Shown: positions 12,084-35,252 of the stretch, piece after piece | How positions within the stretch are numbered: the first letter of the stretch is position 1 | How the letters are laid out: every line of letters starts with the position of its first letter | Origin: Candidatus Methylomirabilota bacterium | GTDB lineage: Bacteria > Methylomirabilota > Methylomirabilia > Rokubacteriales > CSP1-6 | Assembly: GCA_036002485.1 (NCBI GenBank) | Contig: DASYTI010000206.1 | Location: 1 to 37,538 of the forward strand | Direction of reading: 5' to 3' | DNA: 37,538 nucleotides | Notes under the pieces: generated by a model | Seen by the model: the letters and a program-made list of their open reading frames with translations, nothing else | Database searches by the model: none | What the model was told of the DNA's origin: nothing | Translations under genes and position numbers: made by a program

Positions 12084-13661
12084 ATGACCCATACTCGGCG
12101 TGACTTCCTTCGCCGCACGGCCATCGGCGCCGGCCTCGCGGCTCCCCTCGCGCAGACCCTGGCCCGTCCCTCCGTGGCGCGGGCCCAGGGCGACAAGCAC
12201 GGAGGCACCCTGCGCATCAGCGCTACCTTCGGGCTCAGCACCATCAACCCGGTGGCCCACATCAGCGGGGCGGAGTGGCTGGCCACGCGCTGGCTCTACA
12301 ACAACCTCACGCGGCTCAACATCAAGCGCGAGGTGGTGCCCGACCTCGCCGAGTCGTGGGCGGCCTCCGAGGGCGGGCGCGTGTGGACCTTCAAGATGCG
12401 GCGGGGAGTCCAGTTCCACATCGGACGTGAGGTCGTCGCGGACGACGCGGTGGCGACCATGCAGACCATCCTGGATCCCAAGACGGCCTCGCCGTACCGC
12501 GGCGAGATCGGCCCCATCGAACGCGTCGACGCCATCGACAAGTACACGGTGCGCTTCACGCTGCGGGCGCCCTTCGCCGACTTTCCCGCCATGATGACGC
12601 TGCCCGTCGCGCGCATCGTGGCCCGCGAGGGGCTGGCCGACCTCAAGGCGCTGGCCGCCAAGGAGTTCGGCTCGGGGCCCTTCCGGCTGCGCGAGTTCGT
12701 CCCGGGCGACCGCGTCACCGTGGAGCGCTTCCCGGGCTACTACCGCAGCGGGCTGCCCTACCTCGACGCGGTATCCCTCAAGATCTTCCCCGAGCCGACG
12801 ACCGAGCTGACGGCGTTCAAGGGGAAAGAGACGGACGTGATCTGGGACGTGAGTCCGGACCTGTTCTCACAGGTCGCGGGCACGCCCGGGGCGGACGCCA
12901 TGGCGGTGTCTGGCGGCACCTTCGCCAACGTGATCCTGCCGTCGGACAAGCCGCCCTTCAACGACAGCCGCGTGCGCGAGGCCATCAAGTACACCGTCGA
13001 TCGCGCGAAGATGCTGGCCGCCATCCATGGCACGCACGGCGAGCTCGCCAACGACCATCCCGTCTCCTCCGCGTACACCTTCTACTCGCAGCTGCCCCTG
13101 CGCACCCCCGATATCAACAAGGCGAAATCGCTCCTGCGCGAGGCCGGCCACGGGGGCGGGATCTCGTTCAAGATCTCCGTGGCGGGCTCGCCGCCCATCC
13201 GCGAGCAGGTGGCCGTCATCCTCAAGGAGATGGCGAAGCCGGCGGGCTTCAACATCGACGTCGAGGTGCTGCCCTATGACCGCTACCTCGCCCAGGTGTG
13301 GAACAAGGGGGTGCCCTACGTCGGCTTCTACGCCACGCGGCCCACCGCGGACACCATCCTCATGAAGCTCTACCATCCCAAGGAGGGGCTCGACGAGGGG
13401 CGGTGGGCGCCGTCGCACGCGGAGGCCGTGAAGATGCTCGAGCAGGCGCGCGAGACCCTGGATGTCGCGCAGCGGCGCCGGCTGTACGCGCAGTTCCAGA
13501 AGATCGCCCGCGACGACGGGCCGTTCATCATCCCCTTCTTCCGCAACGAGCTGAGCGGCAAGTGGGCCTACGTGCGGGATTTCCGGCTGAATCCGAGCAA
13601 TTTCGAGATGGACCTCGAGGAGGTCTGGCTCACCGCCGACGCGCCGCGGAAAAAGGCCTAG
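12084..13661 (+). CDS. ABC transporter substrate-binding protein, Tat-exported (SBP family 5)
   Basis: A 525-residue peptide/nickel-type solute-binding protein (DppA/OppA cluster). The N-terminus 'RRDFLRRTAIGAGLAA' with cleavage near 'ARAQG' is a twin-arginine signal, so it is probably folded before export. Family features are 'GGTLRIS', 'LYNNLTRLN', 'LAESW', 'TFKMRRGVQFH' and 'YPGYY'-like 'FPGYYRSGLPYLD' in the first 250 residues, and 'VREAIKYTVDRAKML' later. GGGGGAGG lies just before ATG 12084. The gene is followed by two hairpins and then the permease pair and fused ATPase, so it is the binding component of a complete importer. Its ligand is likely a short peptide or an amide-like molecule, in view of the M20 gene just before it (inference). 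Confidence 0.93.
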   Translation: MTHTRRDFLRRTAIGAGLAAPLAQTLARPSVARAQGDKHGGTLRISATFGLSTINPVAHISGAEWLATRWLYNNLTRLNIKREVVPDLAESWAASEGGRVWTFKMRRGVQFHIGREVVADDAVATMQTILDPKTASPYRGEIGPIERVDAIDKYTVRFTLRAPFADFPAMMTLPVARIVAREGLADLKALAAKEFGSGPFRLREFVPGDRVTVERFPGYYRSGLPYLDAVSLKIFPEPTTELTAFKGKETDVIWDVSPDLFSQVAGTPGADAMAVSGGTFANVILPSDKPPFNDSRVREAIKYTVDRAKMLAAIHGTHGELANDHPVSSAYTFYSQLPLRTPDINKAKSLLREAGHGGGISFKISVAGSPPIREQVAVILKEMAKPAGFNIDVEVLPYDRYLAQVWNKGVPYVGFYATRPTADTILMKLYHPKEGLDEGRWAPSHAEAVKMLEQARETLDVAQRRRLYAQFQKIARDDGPFIIPFFRNELSGKWAYVRDFRLNPSNFEMDLEEVWLTADAPRKKA

Positions 13662-13698
13662 CCTGGATTGTTCGCAAGACAACGCCACCCTCACCCTG

Positions 13699-13760
13699 CC
13701 CTCTCCCTCTCCGAGGGAGAGGGATTCATTTGATACCTCTCCCCCGCGGCGGGGGAGAGG
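13699..13760 (+). terminator. Double hairpin between binding protein and permease genes
   Basis: Two stems: 13699-13709 with 13713-13723 (11 bp, loop TCC, followed by ATTCATTTGAT), and 13736-13745 with 13751-13760 (10 bp, loop GCGGC). Placed between the binding protein and the permeases, they could attenuate the transcript so that the binding protein is made in excess, as is usual for ABC importers (inference). Confidence 0.55.
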
Positions 13761-13778
13761 GCAATTCGAGCTGAGTAG
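13761..13778. repeat. Short fragment related to the 17.7-kb foldback repeat
   Basis: GCAATTCGAGCTGAGTAG matches GCAGTTCGAGCTGAGCGG, part of the right arm of the 17668-17887 element, at 15 of 18 positions, in the same orientation. It directly follows the CCTCTCC stem, the same pairing of motifs seen at 8184-8261. Confidence 0.45.
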
Positions 13779-13841
13779 ACAAGGGGGAGGCCAGAATTGG
13801 GTGCGCGCGCTCTTGAATAGGTCGGGCTAGCCCGGGAGCTT

Positions 13842-14789
13842 GTGAGCTTCTACGTCGCTCGACGGGCGCTGTCGATCGCGCTCGTCCTCGTCCTCATCTC
13901 GCTGATCGTCTTCGTGGCCATCCACGTGCTGCCGGGAAGCGCGGCCACCCTCATCCTGGGCGAGTACGCCACCCCACAGAGCCTGCGCGCGCTCGAGCGC
14001 GAGATGGGCCTCGACCGCCCATTCGCCGTCCAGTACGTCGCGTGGATCGGGGGCGTGGTGACGGGCGACTGGGGCTATTCGCTCGCCATGAAGCAGCCCG
14101 TCACCGCGATCATCGGGCTGCGGCTGCGCAACTCCGCCCTGCTCGCCGGCTTCGCTCTCCTGGCCGTGGTCCTCGTCGCGATCCCCCTCGGCACCCTCGC
14201 CGCCCTCCGGCGCGGCCGCGCGCTCGACTTCGCGATCCTCACGGCCTCGTACGTCGGGATCTCCGTGCCCGAGTTCGTCACCGGCATGGTGCTCATTCTC
14301 GTGCTCGCGGGGCCGTCGCTTCATCTCTTTCCGACCGGCGACTACGCGCCCCTGGCCGCCGGGCTGCGCACGTGGCTCTCGCACCTGGTGCTACCGGCCC
14401 TGACCCTCACCCTCGTCCTGATCGCCCACGTGCTCCGCCAGACGCGCTCCGGGCTCGTGGAGGTCCTCCAGTCCGCCTACGTGAGAACGGCGCGGCTCAA
14501 GGGGGCGACCGAGCGCCGCGTCGTCGTGCGCCACGCCTTGCGGAACGGGCTCCTGCCCGCGGTGACGGTGATCGCCCTCGACCTCGGCTACCTCATGGGC
14601 GGCATCGTCGTGGTGGAGGAGGTGTTCGCGTATCCGGGGATGGGGCGGCTCATTCTCTACGCGATCCAGAACCGCGACGTGCCGCTCCTGCAGGTATCGA
14701 TCCTCATCGTCGCCGCCACCTACGCCTTCGCCAACTTCGCGGCGGACATGGCGTACGCGTGGCTCGATCCGCGGATCCGATTTCAATGA
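13842..14789 (+). CDS. ABC transporter permease (DppB/OppB type)
   Basis: A 315-residue inner-membrane permease of the peptide/nickel importer family with about six membrane segments; the first is 'ALSIALVLVLISLIVFVAIHV' region (residues about 8-28). The DppB-specific N-terminal part 'LPGSAATLILGEYATPQ' and 'LEREMGLDRPFAVQYV' is present, and the cytoplasmic loop that docks with the ATPase reads 'RLKGATERRVVVRHALRNG'. It starts at GTG 13842, with GGGAG only 3 nt before it. Its stop overlaps the start of the next permease (ATGA). It forms the membrane channel with the following gene. Confidence 0.93.
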   Translation: MSFYVARRALSIALVLVLISLIVFVAIHVLPGSAATLILGEYATPQSLRALEREMGLDRPFAVQYVAWIGGVVTGDWGYSLAMKQPVTAIIGLRLRNSALLAGFALLAVVLVAIPLGTLAALRRGRALDFAILTASYVGISVPEFVTGMVLILVLAGPSLHLFPTGDYAPLAAGLRTWLSHLVLPALTLTLVLIAHVLRQTRSGLVEVLQSAYVRTARLKGATERRVVVRHALRNGLLPAVTVIALDLGYLMGGIVVVEEVFAYPGMGRLILYAIQNRDVPLLQVSILIVAATYAFANFAADMAYAWLDPRIRFQ

Positions 14790-15610
14790 CCACCCTGGCG
14801 GGGGCTGTCCGCGCGAACCCGCCCCTGGCCATCGGCACCCTCATCCTCGCCTGCGTGCTCGCCCTCACCGTGCTCGCGCCCTTTCTCGCCCCGTACGGGG
14901 TGGCCGAGCAGAGCATTCTCGATCGCCTCCAGCGGCCAGGCGCGAGCCACCTGCTCGGCACCGATCAGTACGGCCGCGATCTCCTGACCCGCACGCTCTT
15001 CGGCGGGCGCACCGCGCTCTTCCTGGGACTGGGCGCCGTCGCCCTCGGCCTCCTCCTCGGCGTGCCCATCGGCCTGGCCAGCGGCTATGCGGGCGGGCGG
15101 ACCGACGAGGTGGTCATGCGCGTGGTCGACGCCTTCCTCTCCTTCCCCGCTCTCCTCATGGCCCTCATGATCGTCACCGCGCTCGGAGCCAGCACCGCGC
15201 ATGCGCTGCTCGCCATCGGCGTCGCCAATGCCCCCGGCATCGCTCGCATCGTGCGAAGTCAGACCCTGGCCGTGACGCACGAGGAATTCGTGGTGGCCGC
15301 ACGCGCCCAGGGCGATTCGCATGCCTACATCATGTTCGGCGAAATCCTGCCCAACCTCCTGCCCCCCATCGTGATCGAGGCGAGCATTCGCGTGGGCTTT
15401 GCCATCCTCGCTTCGGCCAGCCTGTCCTTCCTCGGCCTCGGCGTCCAGCCGCCCACGGCGGATTGGGGGTTGATGATCCGCGAGGCGCGCCAGCACATCT
15501 TTCTCTCACCCTGGCCGCTCCTCTGTCCCGGCCTCGCGCTCGCTCTGACCATCGTGGGCTTCAACCTCTTCGGCGACGGCGTTCGTGATCGCCTGGCCGG
15601 GCGTACGTGA
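14786..15610 (+). CDS. ABC transporter permease (DppC/OppC type)
   Basis: A 274-residue partner permease. It carries the N-terminal DppC pattern: one membrane segment ('LAIGTLILACVLALTVLAPF'), then the typical 'HLLGTDQYGRDLLTRTLFGGR' periplasmic segment near residues 53-73, and the binding-protein-dependent transport fold with the ATPase-contact loop 'AARAQGDSHAYIMFGEILP'. ATG 14786 overlaps the DppB-type stop by 4 nt, and its own TGA (15608-15610) overlaps the ATG of the fused ATPase gene by one base. The frame is open much further upstream, but only this start gives the conserved N-terminus. Confidence 0.93.
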   Translation: MTTLAGAVRANPPLAIGTLILACVLALTVLAPFLAPYGVAEQSILDRLQRPGASHLLGTDQYGRDLLTRTLFGGRTALFLGLGAVALGLLLGVPIGLASGYAGGRTDEVVMRVVDAFLSFPALLMALMIVTALGASTAHALLAIGVANAPGIARIVRSQTLAVTHEEFVVAARAQGDSHAYIMFGEILPNLLPPIVIEASIRVGFAILASASLSFLGLGVQPPTADWGLMIREARQHIFLSPWPLLCPGLALALTIVGFNLFGDGVRDRLAGRT

Positions 15611-17664
15611 TGTCGCGGCAAACGCCCGAGCCCGCTCTCCAGATCGAGCGGCTATCCGTGAGCTTCGAGACGCCGCGCGGCGAGGTCCAGGCGCTCCGCG
15701 ATGTCAGTCTCGAGATCGGGACCGGCGAGGTCTTCGGAATCGCGGGCGAGTCGGGCTCGGGCAAGAGCACGCTCGCCTTCGCGATCATGCGCGATCTGGC
15801 GTCCAACGCGAGGGTGGTCGGCGGCGCCATCCACTTCGCGGGCAAGGACCTCCTCGGCCTGGCCCCGGACGCCCTCCGGAGCATTCGGGGCCGGCGCATC
15901 GCCATGGTCTACCAGGACCCGAAGTCCGCCCTCAACCCGTCGATGCGCGCCGGGCAGCAGATCGCCGAGGTGCTCGAGATCCACGCGCTTGCCTCCCGGG
16001 CGGGCGCGGCGGCGCGCGCGCTCGAGCTGCTGGCCCTGGTCAACATCCCCGACCCATCGGCGGTCGCCCGCGCCTATCCGCATCAGCTCAGCGGCGGCAT
16101 GCAGCAGCGGGTGGTCATCGCCATGGCCCTCGCGGGTGACCCAGCCCTCCTCATCATGGACGAGCCGACCACGGGGCTCGACGTCACCACGCAGGCGCGG
16201 ATCCTCGAGCTGGTGGCCGGCTTCAGACACAATATCGGCGCGGCCATCCTCTACATCAGCCATGACCTTGCCGTCATCGCCCAGGTGAGCGACCGGGTGG
16301 GCATCCTCTACGCGGGCGAGCTGGTGGAGGCGGCGCCGGCCGCGCGGCTCTTCCGTCGCCCCGCGCACCCCTACACGAGCGGCCTGCTCGACGCCCTGCC
16401 TGATCTCGACCTGGCGCGCGCCTTCCGGCCGATCCGCGGCCGGCTCCCGGACCTCACGCACCTGCCCGAGGGCTGCGTCTTCGCGCCCCGCTGCGACTTT
16501 GTGGAGGATGCCTGCACTCGCGGGCAGCCTCCCATGGTCACCGTCGGCCCGGCGCACGCGGCACGCTGCCTGCGGTGGGAGACGGTGATCGCGACCCCGC
16601 CCACCCCCCAGGCGCGGCGCGCCGCCCTTCCATTGCCCGAGATCGCCGCACCTGTCGCGAGTGTCGAGAGCCTCACCAAGCACTACGACGAGCCGGGCGC
16701 CCTCACGCGGTGGCTGGGACTCGCGCGTCCACCCGTGCACGCGGTCGACGACGTGACGTTCGACGTCCGTGGCGGTGAGGTCCTGGCTCTCGTGGGCGAG
16801 AGCGGCTGCGGCAAGACCACGCTCGGTCGCCTCCTCCTGAGACTGCTGCCCCCGACCTCCGGCGCCGTGAGCATCCGCCGTCGGCAGTCCTTTGCTGAGA
16901 TCACGAACGACGCGGAGTTCCGCCGCGTGGTCCGCGTCGTGTTTCAGAACCCCGATTCATCGCTGAACCCCACCAAGCGCGTCGCGGCCATTCTCGAGCG
17001 TCCGCTGGCCATCCAGGGCGTGCCACGCCCGGCGCGCCGGGCCCGGGTCCGCGAGCTGCTCGAGGCCGTGCGCCTCGACGCCGGCTACCTTCGTCGCTTG
17101 CCTCGCGCGCTGAGCGGAGGAGAGAAGCAACGGGTGGCCATCGCGCGCGCCTTCGCCACGGGGCCCGAGCTGGTCGTCCTGGACGAGCCGCTCTCCGCGC
17201 TGGACGTGTCGAGCCAGGCCTCGGTGGTCGATCTCCTCACCGAATTGCGGAACCGGCTCGATGCGACGTACGTGTTCATCTCGCACGACCTGAGCCTCGT
17301 GCGCCACTTCGCCGACCGCATCGGCGTCATGTATCTCGGCCGCCTGGTGGAGCTAGGCACCATGGACGAGATCTTTGACCCGCCGTATCACCCCTACACG
17401 CGGGCGCTGCTCTCCTCGATCCCCGTGCCCGATCCGTCCGCGCGGGCGGTCACGGTCAGGCTCGAGGGCGCCGTGCCGAGCGCCCGCCGCCCACCGCCCG
17501 GCTGCCGCTTCCACACCCGCTGCCCGAGCAAGCTCGGTCGTATTTGCGAAGAGGTCGAGCCTCCCCTCCAGCGCGCGGACGGCACGCACTGGCTCGCTTG
17601 TCATATCCCGCTCGACGACCTGCGGCGCGAGCGGCCCGTTCGACCGGCCCGCGACTCAGTTTGA
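15610..17664 (+). CDS. Fused dipeptide-type ABC ATPase (DppD-DppF in one chain)
   Basis: A 684-residue protein holding both nucleotide-binding domains of a peptide importer. Domain 1 has Walker A GESGSGKST at 46-54, signature LSGGMQQ near 160 and Walker B 'LLIMDEPTTGLD' near 181-192. It is followed by the oligopeptide-transporter C-terminal extension with a Cys cluster ('GCVFAPRCDF...C'). Domain 2 has Walker A GESGCGKTT at 396-404, signature LSGGEKQ near 501, 'LVVLDEPLSALD' and a second Cys-rich extension ('CRFHTRCPS', 'ACHIP') that in the family can bind an iron-sulphur cluster. ATG 15610 overlaps the permease stop; a GTG one codon earlier is less likely. It powers the upstream permeases and may also serve the second permease set, which has no ATPase of its own nearby. 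Confidence 0.93.
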   Translation: MSRQTPEPALQIERLSVSFETPRGEVQALRDVSLEIGTGEVFGIAGESGSGKSTLAFAIMRDLASNARVVGGAIHFAGKDLLGLAPDALRSIRGRRIAMVYQDPKSALNPSMRAGQQIAEVLEIHALASRAGAAARALELLALVNIPDPSAVARAYPHQLSGGMQQRVVIAMALAGDPALLIMDEPTTGLDVTTQARILELVAGFRHNIGAAILYISHDLAVIAQVSDRVGILYAGELVEAAPAARLFRRPAHPYTSGLLDALPDLDLARAFRPIRGRLPDLTHLPEGCVFAPRCDFVEDACTRGQPPMVTVGPAHAARCLRWETVIATPPTPQARRAALPLPEIAAPVASVESLTKHYDEPGALTRWLGLARPPVHAVDDVTFDVRGGEVLALVGESGCGKTTLGRLLLRLLPPTSGAVSIRRRQSFAEITNDAEFRRVVRVVFQNPDSSLNPTKRVAAILERPLAIQGVPRPARRARVRELLEAVRLDAGYLRRLPRALSGGEKQRVAIARAFATGPELVVLDEPLSALDVSSQASVVDLLTELRNRLDATYVFISHDLSLVRHFADRIGVMYLGRLVELGTMDEIFDPPYHPYTRALLSSIPVPDPSARAVTVRLEGAVPSARRPPPGCRFHTRCPSKLGRICEEVEPPLQRADGTHWLACHIPLDDLRRERPVRPARDSV

Positions 17665-17667
17665 GCG

Positions 17668-17887
17668 CTGGCACTGGGGCAAGTTGCGAGCCAGATCAAC
17701 TCAGCTCTCGCCTCGGGCTGCGCCCTCAGCTCGAACGGCCACGCGCGAGCGGGCCGGCAGCCCGAGGCGTACGTGGGTGTACGTTGAGGGTTGCTGGCCC
17801 GCTCGCAACGTGGCAGTTCGAGCTGAGCGGCTCGGCCGCGAAGCGAGGGCTGAGTGGATCTGGCGAAGTAAATTGACCCAGTGCCGG
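17668..17887. repeat. 220-bp foldback element (imperfect inverted repeat)
   Basis: Almost the whole 295-bp gap between the fused ATPase and the next binding protein is one imperfect palindrome. Arms of about 100 nt (17668-17772 and 17779-17887) pair around a short GTGGGT loop. Terminal parts read CTGGCACTGGGGCAAGTT on the left against CCGGCACTGGGTCAATTT as the complement of the right, and later blocks AGCTCGAAC and GCGAGCGGGCC pair exactly. It has no transposase or convincing gene. It could be a MITE or foldback element, or a processed transcript end. Its right end overlaps the region upstream of the next gene's promoter. Confidence 0.85.
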
Positions 17888-17959
17888 TGGCGCCCACGCC
17901 TTGCGCCCTGCCGCACCCGCTGCTAACATCGGCGCCCACCATTCCAGAGGAGGCGCTCA

Positions 17960-19570
17960 ATGCGCAGGCATGTCCGCTTGATCATGATCATGGCCGTCGC
18001 GCTCTTCACTGCCCTGCACTCCACGCCGTCTCCGGAGACCGAGGCCCAGCCCAAGCGCGGAGGCACCCTGGTCATGCTGGTGCAGCCCGAGCCGCCGACG
18101 CTGGCCTCGTATCTCTCCACCTCGGGGCCGATCGGGCAGGTCACGGCCAAGGTCTACGACGGGCTGCTCGAGTACGACTTCAACCTGAACCCGTTGGCGA
18201 GCCTGGCCGAGTCGTGGCAGGTGGCCGCGGATGGGAAGAGCGTCACCTTCAAGCTGCGGCGAGGCGTGCGCTTCCACGACGGCAAGCCGTTCTCGAGCGC
18301 GGACGTGAAGTTCTCGGTGATGGAGGTGCTGAAAAAGGTGCATCCGCGGGGGCCCAACACCTTTCGCTCGGTGACCGACATCGAGACGCCGGACGAGGCG
18401 ACGGCCGTGTTCAAGCTGGACCAGCCCGCGCCCTATATCCTGCGGGCGCTGTCGGGCTACGAGTCACCCATGCTCCCCAGGCACCTCTTCGAGGGGCAGG
18501 ATCCGAAGAGTGCTCCGAATGCCAACAAGCCCGTGGGCACGGGGCCCTTCAAGTTCGTGGAGTGGGACAAGGGGCAGTTCATCCGGCTCGACCGCAATGA
18601 CCAGTACTGGAAGCCGGGGCAGCCCTATCTGGACCGCATCGTGGCGCGCTTCATCCCGGATCCCTCCACGCGCTCGGCGGCCATGGAGAAGGGGGAGGTG
18701 CACTTCGCGGCCTTCGACGCCATCCCGTTCGTGGACGTGAACCGCCTGAAGGCTCTGCCCCACATCGCCATCACCCTCGAGGGCTATTCGATGGTCAATC
18801 CCATCACGCTCCTCGAGATGAACAGCAAGCACCCGCCTCTGGACAAGAAGGAAGTCCGCCAGGCCATCGCCTACGCGGTGGACCGGAAGTTCATCATCGA
18901 GAATATCTGGTTCGGCTTCGGCCGCCCCGCCACGGGCCCGCTCAACGCCAACTTCGCCAAGACGGGACTGTACACGAGCGAGGTGCGGCGCTATGACACC
19001 CCCGACCGGATCGAGCGGGCCAACAGGCTTCTCGACGCGGCGGGGCTCAAGCGCGGGGCCGACGGCATGCGCTTCAAGATCATCCACGACATCCTGCCCT
19101 ACGGCGAGCAGTGGCAGCGGCTCGGCGAGTACATCAAGCAGGCCCTCGGCCAGATCGGCATCGACGTCACCCTGCGCCACGAGGACGTGCCCAGCTGGCT
19201 CAAGCGCATCTTCACCAACTACGACTTCGACCTGACCTCGGACTTCTACTACAACCTGGCTGATCCCGTGCTGGGCGTGCACCGTCAGTACCTGACGGAT
19301 CAGATCCGCCAGGGCACGGTCTTCGTCAACAGCACGCGCTACTCGAACCCAAAGGTGGACGATCTGCTGAAGTCGGGGACGATCGAATCCAACCCGGCCA
19401 AGCGCGCCGCCCTCTACAAGGAGTTTCAGAAGACCGTGGTGGACGACAGCCCCATCGTGTGGCTCTTCGACATGCAGTTCGTCAACATGTCCAACAACCG
19501 CTTCCAGGACATCATCACGAGCCCGCTCGGCGTCTACGGTAGCTTCGACCGGGCCTGGCAGAAGCCGTAG
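17960..19570 (+). CDS. ABC transporter substrate-binding protein (SBP family 5)
   Basis: A 536-residue peptide/nickel-type solute-binding protein with a Sec-type signal ('RLIMIMAVALFTALHS', cleavage near 'TEAQP'), unlike the Tat signal of the binding protein at 12084. Family marks are 'KRGGTLVMLVQPEPPTL', 'VYDGLLEYDFNLNPLASLAESW', 'TFKLRRGVRFHDGKPFSSADVKFS' region (residues about 94-116) and 'VRQAIAYAVDRKFII'. AGAGGAGG at 17946-17953 gives a strong ribosome site for ATG 17960. Two permeases follow within 50 nt, but no ATPase gene. No lipobox Cys is seen, so anchoring to the membrane is not indicated. The ligand is unknown. Confidence 0.93.
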   Translation: MRRHVRLIMIMAVALFTALHSTPSPETEAQPKRGGTLVMLVQPEPPTLASYLSTSGPIGQVTAKVYDGLLEYDFNLNPLASLAESWQVAADGKSVTFKLRRGVRFHDGKPFSSADVKFSVMEVLKKVHPRGPNTFRSVTDIETPDEATAVFKLDQPAPYILRALSGYESPMLPRHLFEGQDPKSAPNANKPVGTGPFKFVEWDKGQFIRLDRNDQYWKPGQPYLDRIVARFIPDPSTRSAAMEKGEVHFAAFDAIPFVDVNRLKALPHIAITLEGYSMVNPITLLEMNSKHPPLDKKEVRQAIAYAVDRKFIIENIWFGFGRPATGPLNANFAKTGLYTSEVRRYDTPDRIERANRLLDAAGLKRGADGMRFKIIHDILPYGEQWQRLGEYIKQALGQIGIDVTLRHEDVPSWLKRIFTNYDFDLTSDFYYNLADPVLGVHRQYLTDQIRQGTVFVNSTRYSNPKVDDLLKSGTIESNPAKRAALYKEFQKTVVDDSPIVWLFDMQFVNMSNNRFQDIITSPLGVYGSFDRAWQKP

Positions 19571-19619
19571 CGCCGGTATCTGGTCGCCGGCTCCGCGGGA
19601 ATGGCGGGCGGCGCTGCCC

Positions 19620-20597
19620 ATGAGTCCCCGCGTCCGCTACGTCGCCCGCCGGCTCCTCCACGCCATCCCCATCGTCCTGGCCATCGTGGTGCTCAATTTC
19701 TTCCTGCTGCACCTGGCCCCCGGCGATGCGGCCACCGTGCTGGCGGGCGAGGCGGGCTCGGCCACGCCGGAATACATGGCCCAGCTCCGCGCGCGCTTCG
19801 GGCTCGACCAGCCGCTCGGGCTTCAGCTCTGGGCCTATACGCGGAACATCCTCACGCTGAATCTCGGGTATTCCTTCCGTCACGACCAGCCGGTCTTCAC
19901 GCTGATCGTGGCCCGGCTCTGGCCGACCCTGCTCTTGATGGTGACCACGCTCGTCCTCTCGGTGACGGTGGGCTCGCTGCTCGGACTGCTCGCCGCCACG
20001 GGTCTTCATCGCTGGCGCGACACCGTCATCTCGATCTTCGCCCTCGTCTCCTATGCCACCCCGCTCTTCTGGCTGGGCCTCATGCTCATCGTGCTGTTCT
20101 CGATCCGGCTGGGCTGGCTGCCCACGAGCGGGATGGAGAGCATCGGCGCCTTCAAGACGGGCTGGGCGCGCGCCCTCGACATCGGCCGGCATCTGATCCT
20201 GCCCACGGGCGCGCTCTCGCTCTTCTACATGGCGCTCTACACCCGCCTCATGCGGGCCTCGCTGCTGGAGCAGGCGGGCATGGACTACGTGACGACGGCG
20301 CGGTCCAAGGGGCTCTCGGAGGGGCGCATCGTCTGGGCCCACACGCTGCGAAACGCGCTCCTGCCCGTGGTGACCATGGCGGGGCTGCAGACCGGGGGCT
20401 TGCTGGGTGGCTCCGTCATCGTGGAGACGGTGTTCGGCTGGCCGGGGCTCGGACTCCTGGCCTTTCAGTCGCTCTTCGCACGCGATCTGAACCTGCTCCT
20501 CGGCATCTTCTTCCTCTCCGCCTGCACGGTGGTGGTGGTGAACCTGGCCGTGGATCTCCTCTACACGCTGCTCGACCCGCGCATCGAGGTCGCCTGA
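19620..20597 (+). CDS. ABC transporter permease (DppB/OppB type)
   Basis: A 325-residue permease with the DppB-type N-terminus 'RYVARRLLHAIPIVLAIVVL' and periplasmic 'APGDAATVLAGEAGSATPEYM', then 'LRARFGLDQPLGLQLWAY'. Core membrane segments follow, with the ATPase-contact loop 'ARSKGLSEGRIVWAHTLRNA' near residues 225-245. ATG 19620 lies 49 nt after the binding-protein stop with no strong ribosome site. Its TGA overlaps the ATG of the next permease by one base. It forms the channel of the second importer with the following gene. Confidence 0.93.
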   Translation: MSPRVRYVARRLLHAIPIVLAIVVLNFFLLHLAPGDAATVLAGEAGSATPEYMAQLRARFGLDQPLGLQLWAYTRNILTLNLGYSFRHDQPVFTLIVARLWPTLLLMVTTLVLSVTVGSLLGLLAATGLHRWRDTVISIFALVSYATPLFWLGLMLIVLFSIRLGWLPTSGMESIGAFKTGWARALDIGRHLILPTGALSLFYMALYTRLMRASLLEQAGMDYVTTARSKGLSEGRIVWAHTLRNALLPVVTMAGLQTGGLLGGSVIVETVFGWPGLGLLAFQSLFARDLNLLLGIFFLSACTVVVVNLAVDLLYTLLDPRIEVA

Positions 20598-21421
20598 TGG
20601 CCGCCTTCTCGCGCCGCTATGGCCGGAATCGCGCGGCGGTGCTCGGCCTCTGCATCCTGGGCGCCGTCGTCCTCCTGGCCCTGGCCGCGCCGTGGATCAG
20701 CCCGGGGAGCCCCTTCCGGCTCGCGGGCAAGCCGCTTTCCCCGCCCTTCGGCGAGTATCTCTTCGGCACCGACACGCTCGGCCGCGATGTGGCCGCGGGC
20801 ATCACGCACGGCGCGCGCACGTCGCTCCTCATCGGGCTGGTGGCCACGACGATGGCGGTGGCCGTGGGCACCGTGCTCGGCGGGCTGGCGGGCTTCTACG
20901 GCGGCATCGTGGACGATCTCTTGATGCGGGTGACGGAGTTTTTCCAGACCATTCCGGCCTTTCTCTTCGCCATCGTGCTGGTCGCGGTGCTTGGCTCGTC
21001 ACTCTCGAGCACGGTGATGGCCATCACCGTGGTGTCCTGGCCCGCGGTGGCGCGGCTCGTGCGCGGAGAGTTCCTCGGCATGCGCCGGCGCGACTTCGTC
21101 CAGGCGTGCATCGGACTCGGGATGCCGGATGCGCGCATCATCTTCCGCCACATCCTGCCGAACTGCCTGGCCCCGATCATCGTGCTCGCCTCCCTCATGG
21201 TCGCCACGGCCATCCTCATCGAGTCGGGCCTCTCCTTCCTCGGGCTCTCCGATCCCAACGTGATGAGCTGGGGCTTTCAGGTAGGGGCCGGGCGCGGCGT
21301 GCTCCGGGTGGCCTGGTGGCTCTGCGCCATTCCGGGCGTGGCCATTCTCCTCACCGTGCTGGCCATCAATCTGGTGGGCGAGGGCCTGAACGACGCGCTG
21401 AACCCCCGTCTCCGGCGGTAG
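20597..21421 (+). CDS. ABC transporter permease (DppC/OppC type)
   Basis: A 274-residue permease, the same length as the DppC-type gene at 14786. The N-terminal segment 'VLGLCILGAVVLLALAAPW' is followed by the family's 'EYLFGTDTLGRDVAAGITHG'. The ATPase-contact loop reads 'ACIGLGMPDARIIFRHILP'. ATG 20597 overlaps the preceding TGA; the open frame extends far upstream, but only from here does the sequence match the family. No ATPase gene follows: the next gene is an antitoxin 60 nt on. The pair must borrow ATPases, most simply the fused one at 15610 (inference). Confidence 0.93.
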   Translation: MAAFSRRYGRNRAAVLGLCILGAVVLLALAAPWISPGSPFRLAGKPLSPPFGEYLFGTDTLGRDVAAGITHGARTSLLIGLVATTMAVAVGTVLGGLAGFYGGIVDDLLMRVTEFFQTIPAFLFAIVLVAVLGSSLSSTVMAITVVSWPAVARLVRGEFLGMRRRDFVQACIGLGMPDARIIFRHILPNCLAPIIVLASLMVATAILIESGLSFLGLSDPNVMSWGFQVGAGRGVLRVAWWLCAIPGVAILLTVLAINLVGEGLNDALNPRLRR

Positions 21422-23813: not shown

Positions 23814-24905
23814 CTAGCGGCGAAGCTCGGCGATGGCGCGCAGGGGCGTGCCATCCTTGCGTGTGATGGCGCGGCGGGTGGGCCTGGTCTGATTGCCGAA
23901 GGTGGGCTGCCAGCAGGAGTGCTTGCCCGCGCCGCCCACCACGATCACCGACAGATCATCAGCCGACTTCACGATGGGGAGCATGGTGTCGGGGGCGGCG
24001 GGCATCTTGCGGCTCTCCACGTGGTGACGCTGGTACTCCTCGCCGAGCCGCGCCAGGGGAAAGCGCGCGTGCTCGAAGACGAACTCCTTCACCTGCTGCT
24101 TGCCGTAGCCGTCGCGCGCGATGGTGGCGGCATGCTCGGGCCCGAGAGAGAGCAACGGATGGCCGGCCGCGAGCAGATTGTTGCTCCCGGCCTGTCCCAT
24201 GGCCCCGGCAATGATCTTGAGGATGCCCAGGCCCGTGTAGCTGTAGTGGTCCTGGATATTGTGCGGCCCCTCGCAGCCGATGGTGGTCACCGTGCTGACG
24301 TCGGCGGGAAAGCCGTGCTCGACGTGAAGCGGCTCCCAGGGATTCTCCGCCTCGTTCTCGGCGATGCAGTAGGCCATCTTGGCCGGGCTGCCCTGGGTGG
24401 CGCGGTCTCCTGTCCCGGGCAGCCCGCCCCCGACATTCATCAGGAGCAGCCGCACGGAGCGGCCAATGGTCATGTTGGCGCGGAAACCCTGGCCGAAGGC
24501 GTTGTAGCCGGCATTGATCTCGAGCTCGCGCGCGATGGGACCGTTGACGATCATGAGCGGGGCCACCGGATGTGTGGTGGCCTGGATGGAGTCGAGGTTG
24601 AAATCGGGATCGGCGAGGGCCTCGACCGCCGTGATGATCACGGGCAGATATTCGGGCTTGGCGCCGGCCATGACCGCGTTGATGGCGATCCGCTCCACGG
24701 TCGCCTCGCCCTGTCGCGGGGGGAGCACGGCCACCACCTCGCGCGGATCGCGATCGGTCCAGCGCAGAAACTCGCGCACGGCGTCGTCCGTGGGCGGAAC
24801 AATGGGCAGCCCGTCGGTCCAGCCGCGCTCCTGGTAGAGGCGGTTGATGGCCGTATAGGAGCCGTCCAGCCGGAAGGTCTTGGCCGCCGGGCCGGCCGTG
24901 CTCAT
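23814..24905 (-). CDS. Uncharacterised partner of the UGSC selenoprotein
   Basis: A 363-residue protein of a family I cannot name. No signal peptide or membrane segment is evident, so it is probably cytoplasmic. Conserved-looking blocks are 'RGWTDGLPIVPPTDDAV' near residues 28-44, 'PEYLPVIITAVEALADP', 'THPVAPLMIVNGPIARELEIN' (about 110-131), 'GCEGPHNIQDHYSYTG' with a Cys, and 'GGAGKHSCWQPTFGNQ' near the C-terminus with another Cys. ATG 24905 overlaps the selenoprotein stop (ATGA), so the two are translated together and probably act together. Given the Sec-containing redox or lyase-like partner, it may be the second subunit of the same enzyme (inference). The gene ends at the structured element at 23526-23813. 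Confidence 0.85.
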   Translation of the reverse strand: MSTAGPAAKTFRLDGSYTAINRLYQERGWTDGLPIVPPTDDAVREFLRWTDRDPREVVAVLPPRQGEATVERIAINAVMAGAKPEYLPVIITAVEALADPDFNLDSIQATTHPVAPLMIVNGPIARELEINAGYNAFGQGFRANMTIGRSVRLLLMNVGGGLPGTGDRATQGSPAKMAYCIAENEAENPWEPLHVEHGFPADVSTVTTIGCEGPHNIQDHYSYTGLGILKIIAGAMGQAGSNNLLAAGHPLLSLGPEHAATIARDGYGKQQVKEFVFEHARFPLARLGEEYQRHHVESRKMPAAPDTMLPIVKSADDLSVIVVGGAGKHSCWQPTFGNQTRPTRRAITRKDGTPLRAIAELRR

Positions 24906-25432
24906 GACCGGGTGACGGCGTTCACCACGGCCTCGATGGCCAGATCGGCCTTTTTCACCACCTCTTCCTCGTGAATGCCGCCCAGCGGATGGGGAATGAG
25001 GGCCAGGGGCAGCTCAGCCAGTCCGCGATTCCTCGCTTCGAGCGTGGCAAGCGACTCGAACTCCTTGGTGCCCATGACGACGGTGGGAATGCCGTGCTGC
25101 TCCAGCACGATGGCGCCGTGGATACTCCACGACGTGCACGACCCTCAGTCGGCGCTCCCGACGAGGACGAAGTCGCACGTCGTCAGGTCGGCGAGGATGG
25201 ACGGCGAGGGCGGGCCCGCGATGCCCTTCTCGCGCTTGATGACGTCCCGCACCCCGTAGCGCTCCTTCAAGCGCTCCACCACGGCCAGCATCAGGGTGCC
25301 GGCATTGGCCTTGCTGTTGTCGAGAATGCCCGCGCGCTTGCCTTGAAGGCTGGCCAGGCGCGGGGCCAGGCCCGTGGCCAGGATCCTGGGATCGGCCGTC
25401 GGGTCGTAGAGCAGGTCGCCGCTGTCGCTCAT
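24902..25432 (-). CDS. UGSC-motif selenoprotein (in-frame TGA = Sec96)
   Basis: Reading TGA at 25145-25147 as selenocysteine gives one 176-residue protein; otherwise it splits into a 95-residue front and an orphan tail with no proper start. The junction reads 'FVLVGSAD-U-GSCTSWS', the UGSC motif that defines a family of selenoproteins and Cys homologues. The N-terminal part includes 'LQGKRAGILDNSKANAGTLM' and the C-terminal 'LEQHGIPTVVMGTKEFESLA'. The U-G-x-C-T pattern followed by 'E..GIPTV' recalls the Sec region of glycine/betaine reductase GrdB (inference, distant). A strong GAGGAGGG precedes ATG 25432, and a hairpin suited to a bacterial SECIS follows the TGA. The stop overlaps the start of the 363-residue partner. 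SelA, SelB and SelC would be needed elsewhere in the genome. Confidence 0.87.
25105..25137 (-). promoter_or_regulatory. SECIS-like hairpin after the UGA codon
   Basis: In the mRNA, 13 nt after the UGA, CGUGGA (25131-25126) pairs perfectly with UCCACG (25122-25117) around a GUA loop. An outer GCACG/CGUGC pair (25137-25133 and 25109-25105) extends the structure. The apical loop, with G and U, lies 20-22 nt from the UGA, within the range of bacterial SECIS elements recognised by SelB. The structure lies inside the coding sequence, as expected in bacteria. Confidence 0.6.
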
Positions 25433-25628: not shown

Positions 25629-27314
25629 GTGCACGATCTCGTCATAGACAATGCGCGCATCGTCGATGGCCTGGGCTCCCCGGCGCGCGAGGGAAGCGTC
25701 GCGGTTGCCGGCGGCCGCATCGTCGCCATCGGGCGCGGCCTGGGCCCGTCCCGGCAGACGGTGAACGCGCAGGGGCTCTGCCTGGCCCCGGGCATCGTGG
25801 ACATCCATACGCACTATGACGCCCAGCTGACCTGGGATCCCTTCGCCACGCCGTCGACCTCGCTCGGCGTGACCACGGTGGTCATCGGCAATTGCGGCTT
25901 CACCATCGCCCCGTGCCGGCCTCAGAACCGCGACCTGATCATGCGCAATCTCACCCACGTGGAGGGCATGTCGCTCGACGCCATGCGCGCGGGCATTCAG
26001 TGGGACTTCGAGAGCTATCCGGAATATCTCGGCGCCATGGAGCGTCGCGGTGTCGTGCCGAACGTGGCCTCCTTCGTTGGGCATTCCTCGGTGCGCACGT
26101 ATGTCCTGGGCGAAGAGGCGGCCCGCCGCCCCGCCACGGACGCCGAGATCGCCGAGATGAAGCGCATCGTGCTCGAGGCGGTGAAGGCGGGGGCCATCGG
26201 CTTCGCCACCTCCACCCTGGAGCAACACAATGGCGAGAACGGCATTCCCATGCCCTCGCGGCTGGCCGACGAGAAAGAGATGCTCGCCCTCACGGGAGCG
26301 CTGGGCGAGGCCGGGCGGGGCATCTTCATGCTGACCAAGGGCATGACCTCGACCATTCCGTGGCTCGAGAAGATCGCGGGGCACAATGGCCGGCCCGTGA
26401 TGATCGCGGCCATGTTCGTGGATCCGGGCGATCCCGGCCGCGTCTTCAAGGAGCTGGGCGAGATCGAGCAGGCGCGCTCGCGCGGCCGCGAGCTCTGGGC
26501 GCAGGTAGGTTGCTTCCCGCTCGGCATGGAGTTCACGCTGCGCCACCCGTATCCGCTGGAGGCCCTCATGGCGTGGCGGCCCGCCCTGACCGCGCCCGAC
26601 GAGGTGCGCTACCGGCAGGTGCTGGCCGACCCGGGCTTTCGCCGCGCCCTGACCAAGGAGATGGGCGAGCCCGGCGTGCCGAATCGCATCAGCAATGCGA
26701 ACTGGGATTACCTGACCATCGCCGAGGTGAAGAAGCCCGCGCTCCGGCCTCTCGAGGGCAAGACCATCGGCGAGCTGGCCAGAGAGCAGAAGCGAGAGCC
26801 CTTCGATGTCTTTCTCGATTTCGGGCTGGCCGATGACCTCGACACCATGTTCGACTGCCGGCTCTTCAACACGGATGAAAAGAAGGTCTCCGAGCTCCTG
26901 CGCCACCCGTGCGCGGCCGTGGCCCTCTCGGATGCGGGCGCCCACCTCTCCTTCCTGTGCGACGCGGGCTTCGGCCTCCATCTCTTCGGGCACTGGGTGC
27001 GCGAGCGCGGCGACCTGACGCTCGAGCAGGCGGTGCGCGCGGTCACGAGCACGGTGGCCGACGCCTACCGCATCAAGGACCGCGGCCGGGTCGTGCCGGG
27101 GGCCTGGGCGGATCTGATCCTTTTCGATCCCGCCCGGGTCGGGCGAGGCGAGAAGCGCCGGGTGAATGATTTGCCCACGGGCGCCTCGCGCCTGGACACG
27201 CCGGCCGTCGGCCTCCACGGCGTCTGGGTCAATGGCGCGCGCACGGCGGACGAGGGCGGCGTCATCGCCGACTGTGGCCGGCCGGGGCGCGTGCTACGGG
27301 AGTTCGGGGCGTAG
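25629..27314 (+). CDS. N-acyl-D-amino-acid deacylase (D-aminoacylase family)
   Basis: A 561-residue amidohydrolase of the D-aminoacylase group (COG3653), which cleaves N-acyl-D-amino acids and related amides. The metal site includes His60/His62 in 'DIHTHYD', Cys89 in 'VVIGNCGFTIAP' (the bridging Cys typical of this group) and the late Asp in 'LSDAGAHLSF'. The N-terminal beta-sandwich 'DLVIDNARIVDGLG' and the closing 'GAWADLILFDP' match. Length is close to that of the longer family members. GTG 25629 follows GAAGGAGG at 25612-25619. No signal peptide is seen, so it acts in the cytoplasm. The gene stands alone but fits the amide-hydrolysis theme of the region. Confidence 0.9.
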   Translation: MHDLVIDNARIVDGLGSPAREGSVAVAGGRIVAIGRGLGPSRQTVNAQGLCLAPGIVDIHTHYDAQLTWDPFATPSTSLGVTTVVIGNCGFTIAPCRPQNRDLIMRNLTHVEGMSLDAMRAGIQWDFESYPEYLGAMERRGVVPNVASFVGHSSVRTYVLGEEAARRPATDAEIAEMKRIVLEAVKAGAIGFATSTLEQHNGENGIPMPSRLADEKEMLALTGALGEAGRGIFMLTKGMTSTIPWLEKIAGHNGRPVMIAAMFVDPGDPGRVFKELGEIEQARSRGRELWAQVGCFPLGMEFTLRHPYPLEALMAWRPALTAPDEVRYRQVLADPGFRRALTKEMGEPGVPNRISNANWDYLTIAEVKKPALRPLEGKTIGELAREQKREPFDVFLDFGLADDLDTMFDCRLFNTDEKKVSELLRHPCAAVALSDAGAHLSFLCDAGFGLHLFGHWVRERGDLTLEQAVRAVTSTVADAYRIKDRGRVVPGAWADLILFDPARVGRGEKRRVNDLPTGASRLDTPAVGLHGVWVNGARTADEGGVIADCGRPGRVLREFGA

Positions 27315-33206: not shown

Positions 33207-33611
33207 ATGAAAAAGGCCCTGGCGATTCTGGGATTGCTGGCGATTCTGACGGCCCTCGTCCCGATGGCCGCGGAGGCCAACGGACGCGGTCACCGCGGCT
33301 TCCACCGTGGCGGACGAGTGTTCGTAGGGATCGGAGTGGGCTTCCCCTGTTGCGGGTTCTACCCCTGGCCGTACTACTACCCGACTTACTATCCTGCGCC
33401 GGTGGTCTACACCGCTCCGGAGGCCAGCTACACGGCTCCGGCAGCCACGTACACGCAGCAGGCGCCCCAGGTCGATCGCGAGGTCATTTTCCCCGAAGGC
33501 CGCTATATCCTCCAGGGCGACGGCGTGACGACGGCCTACAAGTGGGTATGGGTGCCGAACCCCCCGGCCCCGCCCACCGCGCCGCCGACGGCAACGCCGC
33601 AGCCGCGCTAG
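33207..33611 (+). CDS. Small secreted Tyr/Pro-rich protein
   Basis: A 134-residue exported protein with a clear signal peptide ('KALAILGLLAILTALVPMAAEA', cleavage near residue 25). The mature part has a His/Gly/Arg start ('GRGHRGFHRGGRVFVG'), a Tyr/Pro segment ('CCGFYPWPYYYPTYYPAP') and a short ordered stretch 'REVIFPEGRYILQGDGV' before a Pro/Thr tail. No family is assigned; similar Gly/Tyr/Pro-rich small proteins occur at the surface of many GC-rich bacteria. GAAGGAGAG precedes ATG 33207. Its TAG shares the bases CTAG with the stop of the convergent amidase gene, so the two coding regions overlap by 4 nt tail to tail. Confidence 0.8.
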   Translation: MKKALAILGLLAILTALVPMAAEANGRGHRGFHRGGRVFVGIGVGFPCCGFYPWPYYYPTYYPAPVVYTAPEASYTAPAATYTQQAPQVDREVIFPEGRYILQGDGVTTAYKWVWVPNPPAPPTAPPTATPQPR

Positions 33612-34999
33612 TCGACTTTCGGATGGCGTGTGTGCCAGTCGGTGAGCGACTGGTACGCGCGGGCGGCGGCCAGGACGCGGTTCTCCTCCCACGCGCGACC
33701 CATGAACTGAAGGCTCGTCGGTAGCCCGCGCGCGCCCACCCCATTCGGCACGCAGACCGCGGGCAGCCCGGCCCCATTGCCCACGGCGCCCATCACGTCC
33801 TTGGCGGTGGCGCGAATGGCGCTCCGGAATTCTTGCCCCAGCCGTGGCGCCTCATTGATCCGGCCCGGGGACACCAGAGCGTCGTACGGACTGATCACGC
33901 GGTCGATCTCGCGCGCCATCACGCCGCGCAGGCGCACGGCCTTGAGGTAGTCGTGGGCGAGGATGGCCTCGCGGGCATAGGGCGTGAAGCGATCCTCGGG
34001 CGCCGTCAGCTCCGCGATGCCCCCGCTTTCGATGAGGTCCTCGAAGGCGCTGATGGCCTCGACCTGGAGAATGGTGCGTGTGATCTGCTCGTAGGGCAGA
34101 TCGGGCAGCGCCACCTCCTCCACCGTGCCGATCTTCCCGAGCTCGTCGAGCGAGCGGCGGAAGTTCGCGATGACGGCCTCCTCGCAGCCGTCAGTGACGC
34201 CGGGGATCACCCCGAAGCGAAAGCCTCTCCCATCGGCCACCTCGTATCGATATGGACGCTCGCTCGCCGTGGGGTCGGCGGGATCCGCGCCGGCGATGGC
34301 CTCGAGGACGAGCCCGCAGTCATCCGCGGTGAGAGCGAGCGGCCCCAGCTTGTCGAGCGTCCAGCACAACGCCATGGCGCCGCGCCGACTGACCCGGCCA
34401 TAGGTGGGGCGCAGCCCCGCGAGACCGCAATAGCCCGCGGGCGAGAGGATGGAGCCCCACGTTTCCGAGCCGATGGCGAAGGGCACCAATCCTGCCGCCA
34501 CCGCGGCCCCGGACCCGCTTGACGATCCGCCGGTCCAGGCATCCGCGTCCCATGGATTGATACACGGTCCCGTGAAGGACGCCGTGGGCTGGCGATAGCC
34601 CATACCCCCCGCCAGCTCGATCATGGCGAGCTTGGCGCAGAGTACGGCCCCCGCCTCTTCGAGCTTGAGGATGACGGTGGCGTCGAAGTCGAAGCGCTGC
34701 TCGCGATAGGGCGCGGCGCCCCACGTCGTCGGCGTGCCCGCGGTGGCCAGGAGATCCTTGGCGCCATAGGGAATGCCGTGGAGGGGTCCGCGGTAGCGCC
34801 CCGCCGCGATCTCGCCCTCCGCGCGCCGCGCCTGGCTGAGCGCCCTCTCGCGGGTGACGGTGACCACGGCGTTGTATTTCGGGCCGAGGCGCTCGAGGCG
34901 ATCGAGGCACAGCTCGGTCAGCGCCACGGGCGAGAGCCGGCGCGCGCGCACGAGGGCAGCAAGCTCGCGCACCGGCTTGAAGAGAAGATCGGAGCTCAC
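33608..34999 (-). CDS. Amidase (GatA / amidase-signature family)
   Basis: A 463-residue amidase-signature enzyme. The Ser-cisSer-Lys triad is readable: Lys81 in 'IPYGAKDLLA', the cis-Ser in 'GGSSSGSG' (residues 158-165) and the nucleophile Ser183 in 'GSETWGSILSPAGYCG'. Trp replaces the usual first Gly of the GG before that Ser. It hydrolyses an amide to an acid and ammonia; the substrate is unknown. GTG 34999 is proposed as the start; the frame runs on upstream, but through the CCCTCTCC repeat and into the next gene, so a longer protein is unlikely. It follows a small GatC-like gene and a peptide-type ABC transporter on the same strand, which suggests that the imported compound is an amide. 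Confidence 0.88.
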   Translation of the reverse strand: MSSDLLFKPVRELAALVRARRLSPVALTELCLDRLERLGPKYNAVVTVTRERALSQARRAEGEIAAGRYRGPLHGIPYGAKDLLATAGTPTTWGAAPYREQRFDFDATVILKLEEAGAVLCAKLAMIELAGGMGYRQPTASFTGPCINPWDADAWTGGSSSGSGAAVAAGLVPFAIGSETWGSILSPAGYCGLAGLRPTYGRVSRRGAMALCWTLDKLGPLALTADDCGLVLEAIAGADPADPTASERPYRYEVADGRGFRFGVIPGVTDGCEEAVIANFRRSLDELGKIGTVEEVALPDLPYEQITRTILQVEAISAFEDLIESGGIAELTAPEDRFTPYAREAILAHDYLKAVRLRGVMAREIDRVISPYDALVSPGRINEAPRLGQEFRSAIRATAKDVMGAVGNGAGLPAVCVPNGVGARGLPTSLQFMGRAWEENRVLAAARAYQSLTDWHTRHPKVD

Positions 35000-35006
35000 G
35001 GCTGAT

Positions 35007-35252
35007 TCACATCCCTCTCCCCTCAGGGGAGAGGGGAGGGTGAGGAGTGGGGTCACCCCGGTAGGCCGTGAACGCCTGAAAGGGCTCGTCGGCGTTGCCG
35101 AGCCTCACCGCGCGCAGCGCGCGGGCCATCTCCACCTGTCCCTCGACCATCTTCTTGATCTCGTCGAGCTGCTCCGTGGTGAGCCGGCCGCCATAGCGAT
35201 TCACGACCAGCGCGAAGAGCGTCACCGCTTCCGGATTCGGTGTCTCGGGCAT
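35007..35252 (-). CDS. Small GatC/AtzG-like protein (candidate amidase partner)
   Basis: An 81-residue protein. The core 'VTLFALVVNRYGGRLTTEQL' and 'ARALRAVRLGNADEPFQAF' has the size, helix pattern and 'L.n.dEP...F' ending of the small GatC- or AtzG-type subunits that bind amidase-family partners. This is a resemblance, not a firm match. It lies between a DppC-type permease and an amidase gene 8 nt downstream, which supports the idea. GAGG 5 nt before ATG 35252 sets the start; a GTG two codons earlier has no room for a ribosome site. The last dozen residues ('PTPHPPLSPEGRGM') are encoded by the CCCTCTCC hairpin repeat and look like an acquired tail. Confidence 0.7.
   Translation of the reverse strand: MPETPNPEAVTLFALVVNRYGGRLTTEQLDEIKKMVEGQVEMARALRAVRLGNADEPFQAFTAYRGDPTPHPPLSPEGRGM
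35013..35035. repeat. CCCTCTCC-type hairpin repeat
   Basis: A perfect 10-bp stem (35013-35022 with 35026-35035) with a TCA loop. The same sequence family occurs at 8237, 13699 and 13736. Here it lies inside the end of the small GatC-like gene instead of between genes, so that gene's tail is repeat-derived. Confidence 0.75.

Follow-up and report, generated by a model that had tools for sequence, protein, structure and literature searches.

A UGSC-family selenoprotein and its conserved partner as a probable two-subunit enzyme

Among the closest described systems to the gene pair reported here are D-proline reductase (PrdB/PrdA) and glycine reductase (GrdB/GrdE). Like the pair, each has a selenocysteine (Sec) subunit, homologous to UGSC around the Sec, and a second, larger subunit. 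In the mechanism proposed for D-proline reductase, the Sec of PrdB attacks the alpha carbon of the substrate, a Cys of PrdB cleaves the selenoether to give an Se-S bridge, and the bridge is regenerated by dithiol exchange (PMC3091704). PrdB shares its UxxC motif with UGSC. Glycine reductase relies on the thioredoxin reductase/thioredoxin couple (PMC3091704), and recycling of this type is also proposed below for the pair. FarB/FarE of Synergistota is a proposed fluoroacetate reductase, in which a GrdB-type Sec protein has a non-amine carboxylate as its substrate and no pyruvoyl proprotein takes part. Unlike the UGSC pair, FarB and FarE are homologues of GrdB and GrdE, and they are found in anaerobes (PMC10838667).

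UGSC was reported as a selenoprotein family in 2008, in the Global Ocean Sampling study, which also describes a UGSC/'Unknown_1' fusion in which the UGSC domain is joined to a conserved domain without known function (PMC2398784). Unknown_1 very likely belongs to the partner family described here. The study assigns UGSC a likely thioredoxin (Trx)-like fold and a redox role, while the present analysis gives a Rossmann-like model. The original prediction spoke of a possible undescribed selenoenzyme system. The fusion of UGSC with an unknown domain has been in print since 2008, but no published function for UGSC or the pair was found, including in reviews up to 2026.

The gene pair and its selenocysteine codon

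The window is the whole stretch of 37,538 nucleotides that was analysed (contig DASYTI010000206.1 of assembly GCA_036002485.1, Candidatus Methylomirabilota bacterium). Direct reading of the sequence confirms that the two genes and their overlap are present as predicted; both genes lie on the minus strand (Table 1).

Table 1. Features of the gene pair in the window
Feature	Position	Strand	Details and basis
UGSC-family selenoprotein gene	24902..25432	-	176 aa; Sec at codon 96
UGSC gene start and stop	ATG at 25432; TGA at 24904-24902	-	
In-frame TGA read as selenocysteine codon, UGSC motif	25147-25145	-	codon 96, ADUGSCTSW; stem conservation
SECIS-like hairpin	25115..25133	-	8-bp stem, GUA apical loop; comparative pairing
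Shine-Dalgarno-like AGGAGG	25445-25440	-	7 nt upstream of UGSC start; direct reading
ATGA shared by the UGSC stop and the partner start	A24905 to A24902	-	direct reading
Partner gene	23814..24905	-	ATG at 24905; 363 aa; without recognised family; predicted fold at pLDDT 93.6

The first gene is a member of the UGSC family with Sec in the UGSC motif, and it shows no difference in kind from that family. Its product matches Pfam PF24696 over residues 9-174 (E 1.5e-44, 152.6 bits, cut-off 25) and NCBIfam NF041046 with E 3.4e-36 and 124.5 bits, which is 0.5 bits short of the cut-off of 125. The partner falls outside both models. Around the pair are genes for a peptide-type ABC transporter (permeases, ATPases, and two family-5 binding proteins) and for amidohydrolases and amidases, at 12084-21421, 25629-27314, and 33608-35056.

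Comparison across the family indicates that the in-frame TGA reads as a selenocysteine codon. All six UGSC genes of the genome contain one TGA each. In Sec genes, a stem of 8 bp capped by a GUN loop begins 11 nt past the TGA codon, at a fixed distance. Canonical pairing of this stem reaches 95.5% over 101 distinct Sec genes, and it falls to 18.7% after one arm is slid by one base. Two of the base pairs show compensatory changes, which replace G-C by C-G in 26 of these genes and U-A by G-U in 21. Cys-form UGSC genes pair less well in the same region (78%, in a small sample of four). The comparative pairing was decisive for the reading; no Rfam match to a SECIS element was found, and judged by thermodynamics alone the window's hairpin is unremarkable (z -0.77). 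The compensatory changes turn W-S-x-H in the protein into G-S-x-L or similar and keep the hairpin. In one UGSC subfamily, positions 102 and 106 (W...H) switch jointly to G...L with the SECIS hairpin still paired, and this protein covariation appears to be driven by RNA structure.

In the window's own assembly, which has 253 contigs, is 95.7% complete, and holds the six TGA-containing UGSC genes, selA was not found, and no tRNA-Sec or SelB reached the cut-off. A search of 60 genomes found selA in 56, among them three of the other four members of the genus, and the missing genes are therefore read as a gap in the assembly. On a Paracoccus ferrooxidans plasmid, a Sec-containing UGSC gene (L175:5360-5929) is annotated as two hypothetical proteins split at the TGA; the same plasmid carries selB, some 3.3 kb downstream of the partner.

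Conservation and predicted structure of the pair

The pairing of the two genes is deeply conserved. A gene-neighbourhood survey covered 80 partner loci from Rokubacteria, Chloroflexota, Beta-, Gamma-, Delta-, and Alphaproteobacteria, Nitrospinota, Binatia, Actinobacteria, and the haloarchaeon Natrialba. In 76 of them a UGSC gene neighbours the partner and has the same orientation, with a median gap of 83 bp, and two of the other four are cut by contig ends. The UGSC gene comes first in 70. Within these loci, which were selected by the partner, 87 of 89 UGSC genes have a partner within 1 kb. A plasmid search made from the UGSC side gave 14 records, and the partner adjoins in all 13 that could be checked. 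Among 60 related genomes, the same 45 have both genes and the same 15 have neither. In addition, 27 reading frames encode UGSC and partner as one natural fusion. The pairing is thus conserved well beyond chance, as the original interpretation requires.

In the window's own genome, each of the six UGSC genes has a partner gene next to it or nearby. The two overlap in the window, are fused in contig C14, adjoin in C239 and C73, and are separated by 1.2 kb in C251 and 2.9 kb in C175. The genome additionally has two lone partner genes and one fragment. Genomes carry up to 12 UGSC copies. That one genome can hold several paralogous pairs, whose catabolic surroundings vary, suggests that different pairs act on different substrates.

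Structure prediction is consistent with the shared complex that had been proposed. The partner alone is predicted with a high pLDDT (Table 1), and a natural UGSC-partner fusion reaches pLDDT 94.9 and pTM 0.93. A pTM this high on a two-part chain implies confident relative placement of both parts. The fused form is predicted to be one well-packed, compact unit, with an interface read from this one global pTM. In the model, strands and helices of the UGSC part alternate as in a Rossmann-like alpha/beta domain, and the Trx fold was rejected on this predicted pattern. In structure comparison, the UGSC domain mostly matches generic Rossmann folds; the highest-scoring match, chain H of the methyl-CoM reductase activation complex 8s7v, has Z 10.5 and exceeds the others by only about 1. 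For the partner there is no convincing relative among solved structures. Its residues 211-340 weakly resemble a chorismate-mutase-like fold (Z about 5).

Relation of the two proteins to known reductases

The Sec region of UGSC is homologous to that of GrdB, as its resemblance to the GrdB Sec segment had suggested. In a profile comparison of UGSC with Rokubacterial GrdB by hhalign (probability 94.6, E 6.5e-8), the two share HPLG and Sec falls on Sec; these GrdB proteins have their own Sec in ILTSTUGTSTRCG. The glycine reductase selenoprotein B model TIGR01917 matches 28 of 98 homologues, with a best value of 2.2e-6, and the PrdB model TIGR04483 appears among the homologues at 1.9e-4. The window protein itself scores 13.4 bits with the full-length GrdB model, below the cut-off of 602.2.

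The partner shows no such relationship. Hhalign gives it a probability of 0.1 against Rokubacterial GrdE, for which four sequences were available, and 0.3 against GrdB; both were dropped as candidate relatives. PF09338 is absent among the listed Pfam matches of 98 members, and a relation to GrdE is not supported. GrdA was not found in the window's own genome, is present in 6 of 36 relatives, and is missing from most UGSC-bearing genomes. Because the partner shows no relation to GrdE or GrdB and GrdA is mostly missing, the pair is not a member of the glycine/proline reductase family, even though UGSC is related to the GrdB Sec domain. Several Rokubacterial relatives (G011, G012, G005, and others; L148-L154) have a full-length Sec-containing GrdB with GrdE, a few of them also GrdA, and so hold a glycine-reductase-type system beside UGSC.

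The partner has no recognised family, as first described. No match was found in Pfam, NCBIfam, or PDB sequences with the single sequence, family scans repeated on an alignment set of 98 UGSC, partner, and fused sequences still gave none for the partner, and a 68-sequence partner profile found nothing in the PDB. No partner was found in phages. The protein is large and has many invariant residues. The two cysteines that had looked conserved are not: C211 (GCEGPHN) is Cys in only 12 of 68 homologues, and position 331 (KHSCWQP) is most often Ala, Ser, or Val. They were rejected as active-site residues for want of conservation in the family. The family-conserved cysteines are instead at position 82 (66 of 68, NAVMAGC) and position 180 (58 of 68). 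In the window partner, position 82 is occupied by Ala, as it is in the fused copy on contig C14. None of the 68 partners' cysteines is invariant, so there is no conserved Cys that could form a pyruvoyl group. In this, and in not being detectably related to GrdE, the partner differs from GrdE and PrdA.

Proposed function and alternatives

The pair is very probably a conserved two-subunit enzyme, with Sec or Cys at its active position. There is about an even chance that it is a selenol/thiol reductase that is linked to thioredoxin and acts on small carboxylates, its paralogues serving different substrates. We infer that the two proteins form a complex in the cell, that the chemistry is that of a reductase, and which class of substrate is used. 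The reductase reading is favoured because of the UxxC motif and its PrdB precedent, the TrxB-type neighbours, and surroundings typical of organic acid catabolism. UGSC would be a stand-alone version of the GrdB/PrdB-type Sec domain, with Sec96 placed after a central strand and before the helix that follows, and Cys99 three positions later. The partner would pack against it and most likely bind or activate the substrate, taking the place of GrdE or PrdA with an unrelated sequence. The Sec96 selenolate would attack the substrate, probably at the leaving-group-bearing carbon of a small carboxylic acid. Cys99 would then resolve the selenium intermediate to an Se-S bridge, which thioredoxin and thioredoxin reductase would reduce. 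C-X bond cleavage by the pair is possible. The original reading of a two-subunit, GrdB-like reductase is thus partly supported: it keeps the conserved pairing, the predicted compact unit, the GrdB-homologous Sec domain, and the partner without a family, but there is no support for a relation of the partner to GrdE, for oxygen independence as a rule, or for the named cysteines.

The second Cys of UxxC, C99, is present in 59 of 60 UGSC rows. It is lost in loci L116 and L140, and Sec/Cys is lost altogether in two fusions, from Lambdaproteobacteria (L142:6017-7636) and a Sporomusa termitida plasmid (L173:5332-7056). The proposed cycle therefore cannot hold for such members. The link to thioredoxin comes from four cultured strains of distant lineages: trxB adjoins the pair in Roseovarius, the order in Arthrobacter is trxB-trxA-partner-UGSC, trxB is two genes from the pair in Variovorax, and a TrxB-like CAKC flavoprotein adjoins it in Haloterrigena. 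This link is only suggestive, since all four of these few cases are Cys forms and a thioredoxin reductase gene adjoins the pair in none of the 80 partner loci, where one weak match lies about 5 kb away (L070).

The surrounding genes point to organic acid (carboxylate) catabolism. They include TctC, TRAP receptors, CoA-transferase III, MmgE/PrpD, CoA ester lyases, aldolases, and amidohydrolases. No third gene is constant; TctC is the commonest, with 16 of 129 operon-like neighbours. A DUF6282 gene lies directly downstream of the partner in L070 (9090-9968) and in the haloarchaeal loci L110 (7410-8243), L168 (7044-7895), and L182 (7045-7878), and its product is a possible pathway partner. The pair, mostly in its Cys form, also occurs on plasmids of haloarchaea, Paracoccus, Roseovarius, and Arthrobacter. 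These hosts are aerobes, and the oxygen independence that had been predicted is therefore unlikely as a general rule and is not supported.

In a non-redox enzyme, the selenolate or thiolate would be the covalent nucleophile of a carboxylate lyase, hydrolase, or isomerase, and the partner would supply the rest of the active site. Lyases, amidohydrolases, and MmgE/PrpD among the neighbours are in keeping with this, as are the members without Sec and Cys. The partner also has some likeness to class I fumarase (Foldseek E 6e-4, TM about 0.25) and to cyclic amide hydrolases (VIA Z about 5), but these matches are weak and mostly local, and the fumarase likeness was not taken as a guide to function. 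The near-universal C99 and the trxB/trxA neighbours suit redox turnover better, and a non-redox role is fairly unlikely.

A general thiol-redox role, in which a thioredoxin- or peroxidase-like UGSC would act on disulfides or peroxides with the partner as a scaffold, agrees with the UxxC motif and with the assignment in the 2008 study (PMC2398784). The predicted Rossmann-like fold speaks against it, and the large partner with its invariant residues, the many UGSC copies per genome, and the catabolic neighbours suggest specific substrates, which makes this role improbable. A role in handling selenium, sulfur, or metal ions, in place of a carbon substrate, is very improbable. A Paracoccus plasmid does carry selB and genes for cysteine desulfurase, TusA, and DsrE, all no farther than 6 kb from the pair, but such neighbours are not general, and haloarchaeal Cys-form loci are without them nearby.

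The thioredoxin-linked reductase of small carboxylates is thus the preferred reading. The near-obligate partner, the homology to the GrdB Sec site, and the trxB neighbours make an orphan selenoprotein a testable two-subunit enzyme. Because cultured strains carry Cys versions, expression is possible without selenium insertion. Tentatively, the pairs may represent a widespread class of two-subunit selenol/thiol reductases that break bonds in small organic acids in aerobic and anaerobic bacteria and archaea. Such enzymes would join a GrdB-type Sec domain to a new substrate subunit and would occur in several copies of different specificity per genome.
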